From the IMG/VR virus record IMGVR_UViG_3300046011_004498, positions 1 through 64,000 of that record: a stretch of 64,000 nt of DNA; one strand, 5' to 3'. The stretch comes from a virus. The notes under the pieces were generated by a model, which saw only the letters and a list, made by a program, of their open reading frames with translations, did no database searches and was not told where the DNA came from. The position numbers and the translations under genes were made by a program. Positions 4,458-8,547 of this stretch are shown piece by piece. The number at the start of each line of letters is the position of its first letter. Positions within the stretch are counted from its first letter, which is position 1.

Positions 4458-4533
4458 TGGTAGAAGAGATAGGACTTGAACCTATAACCTCCACGTTATG
4501 AGCGTGGGGCTCTAACCATTGAGCTACTCTTCT
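4458..4533 (-). tRNA. tRNA with CAU anticodon (elongator Met or Ile2)
   Basis: On the minus strand the 7-bp acceptor stem (AGAAGAG/CTCTTCT), D-arm (GCTC...GAGC), anticodon stem (CCACG/CGTGG), loop CTCATAA, T-arm with TTCAAGT, discriminator A and encoded CCA are all present. The A1-U72 pair and absence of the three G-C anticodon-stem pairs argue against initiator tRNA. CAU could be Met or lysidine-modified Ile; the sequence alone does not decide. Confidence 0.9.
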
Positions 4534-4723
4534 ATAAAGAACTACAAAAGACGCCCCTTCCCGGAGTGCGTTTGAATGAAAACTCTTGTAGCTCTTCACT
4601 AAAGAGGCCCCAGACCTAAGCAGTTCTCAGCTAATGATCTAGGGCCTCTCGAAGGTTGGAGGGTCTTATTCTCCCGGCACCTTCCTGCCGATCCGAACTC
4701 CATGCAAGCATGGTGTCGAATAG
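4534..4723 (-). ncRNA. structured spacer between tRNA-Met and tRNA-Thr
   Basis: No gene. A 190-nt spacer with GAGGCCC/GGGCCTC arms (around 4602-4650), CGGCA/TGCCG (around 4676-4691), a CATGC/GCATG palindrome near 4701-4712, and CTACAA/TTGTAG near 4543-4591. It lacks a T-loop consensus, so it is not a fifth tRNA. It may be an independent structured RNA or processing spacer. Confidence 0.3.
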
Positions 4724-4799
4724 TGGTGCTGTCTGTAGGGATCGAACCCACGACACCCAGTTTACAAAACTGGCGCTCTACCAACTGAGCTAAGACAGC
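4724..4799 (-). tRNA. tRNA-Thr (UGU)
   Basis: On the minus strand: acceptor GCTGTCT/AGACAGC, TA at positions 8-9, D-arm GCTCAGTTGGTAGAGC, anticodon arm CCAGT-TTTGTAA-ACTGG (anticodon TGT), T-loop GGTTCGATCC, discriminator A and encoded CCA. All arms pair. Confidence 0.93.
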
Positions 4800-4804
4800 A
4801 ATAA

Positions 4805-4881
4805 TGGCGATCACATCAGGACTCGAACCTGAGACCCTCTGCTTAGAAGGCAGATGCTCTATCCAGCTGAGCTATGTGACC
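4805..4881 (-). tRNA. tRNA-Arg (UCU)
   Basis: On the minus strand: acceptor GGTCACA/TGTGATC with one G-U pair, D-arm GCTCAGCTGGATAGAGC, anticodon arm TCTGC-CTTCTAA-GCAGA (anticodon TCT), T-loop GGTTCGAGTCC, discriminator G and encoded CCA. It reads AGA codons, which are frequent in the late genes of this phage. Confidence 0.93.
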
Positions 4882-4892
4882 AAATACAGAAG

Positions 4893-5011
4893 TGTTGGTT
4901 TAATGTTACTTGACGTTTCCCGCGTACACCCATCGGAAGAGCACAACGATTTGATCTAACTATCACAAGTTAGACAATAACATTACTTTGATTTCCTGCG
5001 TTAAACCAACA
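4893..5011 (-). ncRNA. candidate structured RNA between tRNA-Arg and tRNA-Leu
   Basis: A nested fold is visible on the minus strand. An outer 9-bp stem joins 5003-5011 to 4893-4901, an inner 8-bp stem joins 4978-4985 to 4901-4908, and an apical hairpin CTAACT/AGTTAG spans 4956-4973. The 3' arm TAATGTTA plus TGTTGGTTT is contiguous, while the 5' partners are split by a 17-nt bulge (4986-5002). It lacks a T-loop and a canonical anticodon arm, so it is not a tRNA. No known family is recognised. Confidence 0.4.
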
Positions 5012-5045
5012 AATTGACAGGAGGAGGACTGGCTCTCCGATCTTT

Positions 5046-5131
5046 TGGTGCGAGCTAAGGGACTCGAACCCTTACACCATTACGATAACAGATTTTAAGT
5101 CTGGTGCGTCTACCAGTTCCGCCAAGCTCGC
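5046..5131 (-). tRNA. tRNA-Leu (UAA)
   Basis: On the minus strand: acceptor GCGAGCT/AGCTCGC, class II D-arm (GGCGGAACTGGTAGACGC), anticodon loop CTTAAAA (anticodon TAA), a long variable arm, T-loop GGTTCGAGTCC, discriminator A and encoded CCA. The first anticodon-stem pair is a C-U mismatch. The 86-nt length fits leucine tRNA. Confidence 0.9.
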
Positions 5132-5266: not shown

Positions 5267-5566
5267 TCAATTAACTTTCGATCTCAAAGGCTTTCGATCT
5301 TCATCAGAATCTTCACCTTCTTCCTCCTCTTCAGGCTGAGACGGAACGACCGGGTCCAAGTCGGAGGGCGAAGCCCGTAGACGCTGGACCAAAGGGAGTT
5401 TCGGCCAGCCGGGATAACCATTGAACCAAAGTACGTTCTTCTTCCTGAACCAATGACGGTGTGTTGCTTGGGTCTGACCTGAATTCACGGTGGCTGGAAC
5501 CAACCGGGAAAAAGGAATCAACGATAAAGTCAACGCTGTTACGAAAACACCGACATCTTTGAGCAT
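5267..5566 (-). CDS. membrane-anchored acidic protein (99 aa)
   Basis: The N-terminus (MLKDVGVFVTALTLSLIPFSRLVPATV) is a hydrophobic anchor or uncleaved signal sequence. The middle is Trp/Pro rich (WFRKKNVLWFNGYPGWPKLP) and residues 75-90 form a strongly acidic run (QPEEEEEGEDSDEDRK). GGAGAG precedes the ATG. It is the first gene of the leftward early/tRNA region and is divergent from the Acb2-like gene at 5790. No family is recognised. Confidence 0.6.
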   Translation of the reverse strand: MLKDVGVFVTALTLSLIPFSRLVPATVNSGQTQATHRHWFRKKNVLWFNGYPGWPKLPLVQRLRASPSDLDPVVPSQPEEEEEGEDSDEDRKPLRSKVN

Positions 5567-5789
5567 GAGCTCTCTCCGTTATTGGAGACTGATTGTTGAT
5601 ACAGCTTGTCTTTCTTGTCTAGCACAAACTTCAATCATAGTTATATATAGTATAGACACACAAGACACACTTCCCCCGTTTCTCTTCTCTAGTAAATTAG
5701 AGAGAGTGGCCCTCGTCACATCCTGTGGACACGCGCCTTAAACAGACCTAGAGACCAAAGGGCAAGCCAAAAAAAGGAGCACCTTGCAA
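5567..5789. promoter_or_regulatory. divergent intergenic region, probable promoters
   Basis: This gap separates the leftward early genes from the rightward late genes. It contains an AT-rich core (TATATATAGTATAG near 5640-5656) that could supply -10 elements in both directions, and a CTCTA/TAGAG hairpin near 5687-5704. No vRNAP-type 3-nt-loop hairpin is found here. Assignment to host-type promoters is tentative. Confidence 0.35.
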
Positions 5790-6056
5790 ATGTCTGATGA
5801 AGAACACGCTGGCCTTCCCGTCGCAGGATATCGCCCTCAGGGTGATGTCTACATTCGCACCGTTAACGCCAATAAAATTACCGAGGAAAAAATCCTCAGA
5901 ACAATCGACGATCTGCGAAATGAGAAAGCCCCTGATGGTGGTCTGATCCGCGTTGACCAGAGATGGCTGTCGATTGCCACGACCCAACTGGAACAGGGCT
6001 TCATGGCTCTGAACCGGGCAATCTTCCAACCGACAAGGCTTGAGGGAGAGCTCTAA
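5790..6056 (+). CDS. Acb2/Tad1-type hairpin protein, putative anti-CBASS/anti-Thoeris sponge (88 aa)
   Basis: The C-terminal half (DQRWLSIATTQLEQGFMALNRAIFQP) matches the conserved pattern of phage proteins in the Acb2/Tad1 hairpin family (D-x-RWL-x-I-x-x-T-x-LQQGFMAL-x-RA-x-x-PT). The N-terminal part has GYRPQGDVYIRTVNANKITEEKILRTIDDLR, predicted as the first helix of the hairpin. Known members bind cyclic oligonucleotides or gcADPR and so block CBASS or Thoeris defence. The ATG follows AAAGGAGC; an upstream TTG is too close to it. It is the first gene of the late strand, before terminase. Family membership is by recognition of the motif; ligand binding is inferred. Confidence 0.7.
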   Translation: MSDEEHAGLPVAGYRPQGDVYIRTVNANKITEEKILRTIDDLRNEKAPDGGLIRVDQRWLSIATTQLEQGFMALNRAIFQPTRLEGEL

Positions 6057-6108: not shown

Positions 6109-6232
6109 AGCGTGTTCTCGTCCGGGAACCCAAGACCAGACGAACAGCGGCCCAACCATCTCACAGGCAGACAAGTCTTGTATGGCGGTCACTACTCTTA
6201 GATTCAAATACAAATAGAAGAGGTTGCCTCCA

Positions 6233-6922
6233 GTGGCTCTCACACACACAGAAGTCGTTAGTGCATTACCTGCTCACTTAAAGACAGCAGTTACTCCAGC
6301 ATTCGTAGATAAGTTAAACAACATTGTTGCTGACCAACATGTTGCTGAAGAGTTTGAAAGAAACTTCATTACTTATTCTAAAGTTCTTACTGGAGGTAAG
6401 TATAAGACAGGTGATTACTTAAACGCTGTCGCTTACGTAACTTATAAACTCTTGGGACATTCTAACCAAGATGCCTATAAGTATGCCTTTCCTGACAGAT
6501 ATCGTGACATGGTTGCGGCAGGTAAGGATGCAAAGCAGATTAGCTCCTTTGTAGCTGCATACCATAAAGGTCAGCTTGTTACCGCTATTCTGGAACAATC
6601 TATTGTTCCTGCGTGGGTACTACATCAAGGTAAGTTTCACGAAGCTATTGGTGTTCTGGCTGAAGTAGCTTTAGACCCTACAGCTCTAAACAAAGATCGT
6701 GTGGCTGCTGCTGATAGCCTTGCAAAACATCTGACAGCTCCTGTTGCTAAAGAAGTTAATCTGAACATAGGTGTTCAAGAATCTTCTGGCATGATTGAGA
6801 TGAAGCAAATGATGGCAGAGATGGCGCGTCAGCAGAAAGAAATGATTCAGAATGGTGCTGATGTTAAGACTATTGCCGAACAAGGTCTTATCATTGACGC
6901 AACTGCGACTGAGAAACCCTAA
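6233..6922 (+). CDS. terS: putative terminase small subunit (229 aa)
   Basis: The call rests mainly on position: the gene ends in a TAATG overlap with the large terminase gene, as N4 gp69 does with gp68. The protein is helical; residues 1-60 (ALTHTEVVSALPAHLKTAVTPAFVDKLNNI...) could hold a helix-turn-helix. The C-terminus (MIEMKQMMAEMARQQKEMIQ) is a probable coiled coil. The GTG at 6233 is chosen because AGAAGAGG lies nine bases before it; a TTG at 6224 is too close. Small terminases recognise pac/cos DNA and load it into the motor. Confidence 0.6.
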   Translation: MALTHTEVVSALPAHLKTAVTPAFVDKLNNIVADQHVAEEFERNFITYSKVLTGGKYKTGDYLNAVAYVTYKLLGHSNQDAYKYAFPDRYRDMVAAGKDAKQISSFVAAYHKGQLVTAILEQSIVPAWVLHQGKFHEAIGVLAEVALDPTALNKDRVAAADSLAKHLTAPVAKEVNLNIGVQESSGMIEMKQMMAEMARQQKEMIQNGADVKTIAEQGLIIDATATEKP

Positions 6923-8547
6923 TGACCAATCCCATTGTTGACCAGATTAAACAGGAACTTCAGAAGAAGACACTCGATGAGTGGCTTGATGAAGTAGATT
7001 ATAGTGACTTTGACAACTACGTACCGTCAGAGTTTGCATTAATGTATCTACAGTTTATCAAACTGGTTAACGGGAAAGAGGGCGAGCAAAATAAAACCCC
7101 GGTCATCCATCTTAAGATGCTCGACAAATTGGTCTCGGGAAATAGACGCATCGCAAATCTGTGCTTCCGGGGTGCAGCTAAGACCACCCTATTCTTCGAG
7201 TATCTCACCTTATTCATCGCAGTAATGGGTGGTATCCCCGGCTTCGGTGATATTACAGGCATGATCTATGTGTCTGACTCAATGGATAACGGTGTTAAGT
7301 CGGCACGTAAGAACATTGAGTACCGATACTGGAACAGTGAGTTCTTACAGCATTGGCTCCCTTCTGAGGGTGTTAAGTTCACAGATGCGTACATTGAGTT
7401 CCTCTCTAAAGGAGGACATAGACTCGGTGTTAAGATGTTTGGTGCAAAGACGGGTATTCGTGGTACAAAGATTTTCGGAAAGCGTCCGACACTTGCTGTA
7501 CTTGATGACTTAGTGTCAGATGACGATGCTAAGTCTAAGGCTTCCATGAATGCAATTAAGGATACCGTCTACAAAGGTATCGACTATGCCCTTGATCCAC
7601 GTAAACGTATGATCGTGTTCAATGGAACACCCTTCAACTTAGAAGACATTCTTATTGAAGCGGTTCAGTCTGGTGCATGGGACGTAAACGTTTGGCCTGT
7701 ATGCGAACGATTCCCTTGTGAACGTCATGAGTTTGTAGGAGCGTGGGAAGATCGCTTCAGTTTTGACTTCGTTAAAGATCAATACGAGATGTCTGTTCTC
7801 ACTGGAAAGGTAGAAGCCTTCCAACAAGAACTCATGCTTCGTATTTCATCTGAAGAAAACAGATTAGTTCAGGATCATGAACTGCTTTGGTATTCTAGAA
7901 ATGAACTGTTAGCTCGTAAAGCTAACTATAACTTCTACATAACTACCGACTTCGCTACCTCTGATAAGCAATCAGCGGATGACAGTGTCATTTCCGTATG
8001 GGCTTATAACGCTACAGGTAACTGGTTCTGGGTAGACGGAATTGCAGCAAGACAAACAATGGATAAAACCATTGATGCTTTGTTCCGCTTTGTCCGTATT
8101 TATAAGCCACAGTCTGTAGGTATTGAGGTTACAGGTCAGCAAGGCGGGTTCATCCAATGGATTCAAGCTGAAATGTTGAGACAGGATACCTTCTTCAACC
8201 TTGCTTCTTCAGAGAAGAGTGGAGCTCCGGGTATTCGACCAATGCAAAACAAGCTCACCAGATTCAATATGGTGGTGCCTTGGTTCAAGACTCAGAGGAT
8301 GTGGTTCCCTCAAGAGCTTAAGACGGGTCATGTTATGGTTGGTAAAATGATGACCCAGATCAGACTTGCTACATCTAATGGTCTGAAGGGTAAGGATGAC
8401 ATCATTGATACCATCTCAATGTTGGCTTTCCTGAAGCCCTATGCACCATCAGCAGATTACAGTAAGAACCACAACGAAAGTGGAGGCGGTATCTTCCATC
8501 CAGAAGAGGAAGAGATCGAGTATCTTCCTATTAGCCGATACGTCTAA
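6922..8547 (+). CDS. terL: terminase large subunit (541 aa)
   Basis: This is the DNA-packaging ATPase and nuclease. Residues 82-90 (FRGAAKTTL) form a Walker A variant with K87, and LAVLDDLVSDDD near 190-200 is Walker B with the following acidic residues. The nuclease domain begins near 340 (YITTDFATSDKQSADDSVISVWAY), with a further acidic motif near 500 (GKDDIIDTISM). The length is normal for the family. The ATG overlaps the stop of the small subunit gene. The P-loop is of the R-G-x-x-K-T type found in N4-like and related terminases. Confidence 0.93.
   Translation: MTNPIVDQIKQELQKKTLDEWLDEVDYSDFDNYVPSEFALMYLQFIKLVNGKEGEQNKTPVIHLKMLDKLVSGNRRIANLCFRGAAKTTLFFEYLTLFIAVMGGIPGFGDITGMIYVSDSMDNGVKSARKNIEYRYWNSEFLQHWLPSEGVKFTDAYIEFLSKGGHRLGVKMFGAKTGIRGTKIFGKRPTLAVLDDLVSDDDAKSKASMNAIKDTVYKGIDYALDPRKRMIVFNGTPFNLEDILIEAVQSGAWDVNVWPVCERFPCERHEFVGAWEDRFSFDFVKDQYEMSVLTGKVEAFQQELMLRISSEENRLVQDHELLWYSRNELLARKANYNFYITTDFATSDKQSADDSVISVWAYNATGNWFWVDGIAARQTMDKTIDALFRFVRIYKPQSVGIEVTGQQGGFIQWIQAEMLRQDTFFNLASSEKSGAPGIRPMQNKLTRFNMVVPWFKTQRMWFPQELKTGHVMVGKMMTQIRLATSNGLKGKDDIIDTISMLAFLKPYAPSADYSKNHNESGGGIFHPEEEEIEYLPISRYV

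Follow-up and report, generated by a model that had tools for sequence, protein, structure and literature searches.

A short gene beside the terminase genes of a 72,847-base viral record raised the question of whether its product is a sponge for the nucleotide signals of antiviral defense and, if so, for which of them. The analysis covered a 64-kb stretch of that record (the window). A first-pass annotation had placed the gene between a divergent region and the terminase genes, and its position confirmed this (Table 1). The open reading frame is genuine: it has 88 codons, a good ribosome-binding site, many homologs, and a dN/dS ratio well below 1. The references for this ratio were contigs L009 (63% protein identity, dN 0.32, dS 2.04) and L010 (56%, dN 0.33, dS 1.30), the two nearest relatives with a differing acb2-like sequence, and the gene is under purifying selection relative to both. 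A contig from another record, L008, was identical to the window over 8,264 bases. The G+C content of the gene (52.7% over 5790-6053) was higher than that of the window (45.3%), which would fit gain from another phage.

Table 1. Coordinates of the acb2-like locus and of RyR genes in related contigs (window positions unless a contig is named)
Feature	Position	Strand	Remarks
Divergent intergenic region	5567..5772	.	Conserved in part among N4-like relatives; window, L009 and L010 aligned as DNA
Ribosome-binding site	5773..5779	+	AAAGGAG, 10 nt 5' of the acb2-like ATG; from sequence
acb2-like gene	5790..6056	+	88 aa; 5790-6053 plus stop to 6056; ATG start
Stem-loop	6065..6108	+	11-bp perfect GC-rich, with an inner stem, no U-run; between acb2-like and terminase genes
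Terminase small subunit	6233..6922	+	GTG start; synteny with Zuri gp92 and N4 gp69
Terminase large subunit, N4-like	6922..8547	+	65-71% identity to N4, Zuri and Rhizobium N4-like phages
RyR genes (PF02026)	L009:2597-3109; L010:1217-1741; L032:about 131-574; L011:4268-4645		Directly downstream of the acb2-like gene

The family of the protein was identified by profile. The check proposed earlier, an HMM search against Acb2/Tad1, gave PF24729 (the Acb2/Tad1 hairpin) as the sole Pfam match (3e-15, 56.6 bits), well above the curated cut-off of 27 bits, and the signature DQRWLSIATTQLEQGFMALNRAIFQP was present exactly as the first-pass annotation gave it. When a profile of 26 homologs was compared with the PDB, it reached the Acb2 of Pseudomonas phage (8h2j, 5.5e-17; 8ixz, 1.8e-16) and Vs.4 of T4 (7uq2, 1.7e-11). 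Two of the 26 rows were the Zuri and Meara proteins, which are seemingly nearer to Pseudomonas Acb2 and boost that score; the Pfam result is independent of them. The single-sequence search of the PDB was weak (0.018 for p26, 0.12 for Vs.4), and identity to the assayed Acb2 proteins was about 25-32%. The nearest phage homologs were from Brevundimonas, Rhodobacter, Rhizobium, and Caulobacter phages, which would make an alphaproteobacterial host plausible. With this protein, Acb2 is extended to a mostly unannotated clade that is best matched in phages of Alphaproteobacteria. The homolog in L010 (L010:822-1217) has an in-frame start from which its N-terminus would be about 40 residues longer.

The predicted fold agreed with this assignment. 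The AlphaFold2 model (21 rows, pLDDT 84.7) contained a short N-terminal segment with G13-Y14, a hairpin of two long antiparallel helices (residues 19-43 and 57-79), and a C-terminal tail, with no beta domain, as in the solved Acb2 structures. In this model the short N-terminal helix known from Acb2 did not come out as helical, and pLDDT was low in that region. The best nine Foldseek matches in the PDB were all Acb2 chains (probability 1.00). Their E-values were modest (4e-3 to 2.5e-2), and a helical hairpin is a common shape. In the VIA comparison, Acb2 chains scored Z 8.0, 7.9, and 7.8 over 70-74 residues at 28-32% identity, and the next rows were unrelated helical proteins with Z of 6.9 or less and lower identity. 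For a hairpin, a Z near 8 does not settle the matter by itself, and the case is carried by the identity together with the sequence profile.

Both Acb2 and Tad1 belong to this Pfam hairpin family and share the helical hairpin, C-terminal in Tad1, and a single Tad1 pocket is known to bind both cyclic dinucleotides and gcADPR (PMC12043709). The protein could accordingly be a Tad1-like sponge with the same fold and another ligand, gcADPR or some other signal. We consider this highly improbable. The 26-homolog profile reached Tad1 chains only at E 0.5, over 32 residues of the hairpin, which is chance level. The first helix begins at residue 19 and is preceded by no sheet, whereas Tad1 has an N-terminal sheet of four strands, and loops from its protomers help to make up the gcADPR pocket; gcADPR is an unlikely ligand because that beta domain is absent. 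In addition, relatives of this phage have another gene, one with a RyR domain, for that class of ligand. Of the proposed Acb2/Tad1 sponge, the Acb2 part was upheld by family, PDB matches, fold, and ligand residues, and the Tad1/gcADPR part was rejected.

Residues important for ligand binding in T4 Acb2 were among the most conserved positions of 76 distinct homologs. The Y8A and F82C substitutions in T4 Acb2 abolish the Panoptes effect, F82 stacks on the bound dinucleotide, and the F82C protein binds less (PMC12657218), while T68M lowers affinity (PMC12657230). With a one-residue offset in the alignment to the 7uq2 chain, Y8, T68, and F82 aligned to Y14, T65, and F79 of the acb2-like protein, a likeness that accompanies the fold Z of 8.0 to T4 Acb2. 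Y14 was found in 74 of the 76 homologs, F79 in 73, and K29 in all 76. K29 aligned to Lys26 of Pseudomonas Acb2, a cGAMP contact, and R58 aligned to R67, part of the trinucleotide site. Conservation of R58 and W59 is inflated, one homolog search pattern having contained RWL. T4 Acb2 has Asp-Gln in place of this R-W pair, so its trinucleotide binding may differ from that of the acb2-like protein. With Pseudomonas Acb2 (p26; 8h2j, 8h2x, 8ixz) the protein shares the hairpin fold, the GY...N..K and RWLAI..T motifs, and the RAI.QP C-terminal end; it differs in a shorter stretch between the helices and in having F79 instead of Ala, at about 24-30% identity. The N-terminal half had been called atypical, with the suggestion that ligand choice may differ as a result. 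Neither claim was supported: VNANKITEEKILRTIDDL is the clade consensus VNxNKxxEExxLRxxD, and this half retains Y, N, and K where the solved Acb2 proteins have them.

The gene very probably encodes an Acb2-type nucleotide sponge, a reading supported by the Pfam match, the PDB matches of the homolog profile, the predicted fold, and the conservation of ligand residues. The family, single-chain fold, conserved residues, and genomic slot and synteny were established by the analysis; we infer the hexamer, the ligand range, the timing, and the phenotype or benefit to the phage. The 88-residue chain is predicted to fold as a helical hairpin, and six chains probably assemble into the Acb2 hexamer. Tyr14, Lys29, Thr65, and Phe79 would line putative pockets for cyclic dinucleotides. 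The other interface has Arg58, which probably lets the protein bind cyclic trinucleotides (cA3), as Pseudomonas Acb2 does. During infection the sponge would bind CBASS signals without cutting them, and possibly sequester the cA3 signals of type III CRISPR systems as well, and suicide effectors would thereby stay off. In hosts with Panoptes, for which Acb2 is the trigger, an Acb2-type sponge would instead set off the defense, and sensitivity to Panoptes is therefore predicted.

The location of the gene next to the terminase genes also allows for a hairpin protein with a job other than that of a sponge, such as a head or packaging accessory. PHROG 717, a family of 289 positions and of unknown function, matched the protein through the family's C-terminal end, and homolog positions vary, one homolog lying in the structural cluster of the Rhodobacter phage RcapMu, which would also fit a different role. 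This reading is nevertheless highly improbable: other homologs occur among replication genes; the residues that matter for ligand in T4 Acb2 belong to the best-conserved positions; and N4, in which the small terminase is directly followed by the divergent strand, has no PF24729 gene and nothing in this slot, so the gene serves no general need of N4-type packaging. The RcapMu homolog (RcapMu44, L005:2992-3282) is flanked by the genes for the major head protein and the head-tail adaptor, and its record note already reads 'similar to cyclic-nucleotide binding domain'.

The phage of the window is N4-like (Schitoviridae): its virion RNA polymerase of 3,545 aa has three N4-type domains, and its large terminase is close to those of N4-like phages (Table 1). 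The small terminase had no match in the Pfam search; its start is ATG in L009, and in the window a longer form with a TTG start at 6224 is possible. Among phages of the Zurivirus type, Zuri has an Acb2-family gene (71.6 bits) three genes upstream of its small terminase, and Meara has one (65.4 bits) upstream of its annotated terminase, which puts both in the slot near terminase that the gene occupies in the window. The sponge of N4 is Acb4, gp48 (PMC12657230), likewise from a Schitoviridae phage; it belongs to PF13876 rather than to the PF24729 of Acb2, with which it has no structural homology (PMC11722364). Acb4 was not detected in the record of the window by phmmer or PF13876, N4 being found as the positive control, nor by PF13876 in Zuri or Meara. 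In the four genomes sampled, Schitoviridae seem to use alternative sponges, Acb4 in N4 and Acb2 here and in Zuri, which suggests sponge swapping within the family.

The acb2-like gene itself adds an ordinary member to a family already known; the main novelty is the candidate paired Acb2-RyR cassette of its relatives. In three contigs with a large terminase 85-90% identical to that of the window (L009, L010, and L032), the Acb2-like gene was followed by a gene for a RyR-domain protein of up to about 175 aa (45.3-46.5 bits to PF02026, cut-off 27.4). In L009 and L010 the stop codon of the Acb2-like gene overlapped a start codon of the RyR gene (ATCTGATG). In a fourth contig, L011, the RyR gene behind the Acb2-like gene was more distant, and an N4-type terminase was not detected in the available stretch. 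The phage of the window and L008 are both without the RyR gene; no remnant was found in the window by tblastn or by PF02026, a search that was positive in the relatives. Phage RyR-domain proteins bind or hydrolyze 2'cADPR and 3'cADPR and defeat Thoeris (2026 preprint, PMC13232231); the text of that preprint does not mention Acb2, and no paper naming both Acb2 and RyR was found in a literature search. In these relatives, signals of the cADPR class would fall to the RyR protein. The slot in this N4-like clade may be a translationally coupled cassette of two sponges, Acb2 (CBASS/CRISPR cyclic oligonucleotides) and then RyR (Thoeris cADPR), bounded by a divergent promoter region, which is conserved, and by a hairpin at the end of the unit, with the phage of the window a natural RyR-less version, so that cassette content may track host defenses. 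We regard this proposal as evenly balanced; if true, two signal classes would be disarmed from one transcript. A general Acb2-RyR linkage was rejected, as only 4 distinct contigs among about 83 Acb2-like contigs had RyR. The RyR-carrying phages Vibrio SUMAE, Cellulophaga phi40:1, Arthrobacter Shiba, and Erythrobacter XM05 had no Acb2 within about 3 kb.

The downstream boundary of the slot is a stem-loop that occurs nowhere else in the window. In four N4-like contigs it lay between the small terminase and the gene before it, which is Acb2 in the window and RyR in the relatives. The outer stem was 100% paired in the four sequences, with one compensatory change from A-U to U-A. The shuffle control was weak with four sequences; the slide control and the folding energy (z -4.58) support the stem. 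An Rfam search returned nothing relevant, and the stem-loop is probably a terminator or processing hairpin at the end of the unit. At the upstream boundary, the divergent intergenic region probably holds promoters for the acb2 unit (+) and for the opposite strand (-), a function that we infer; the signal in a sigma-70 promoter scan was not above chance. The first gene of the opposite strand is a 99-aa open reading frame (5267-5566, -) with a hydrophobic N-terminus, a W-rich middle, an acidic tail, and no Pfam match, and similar open reading frames are present in L009 and L010. Four tRNA genes (Met, Thr, Arg, and Leu) are located near the start of that strand (4458-5131, -).
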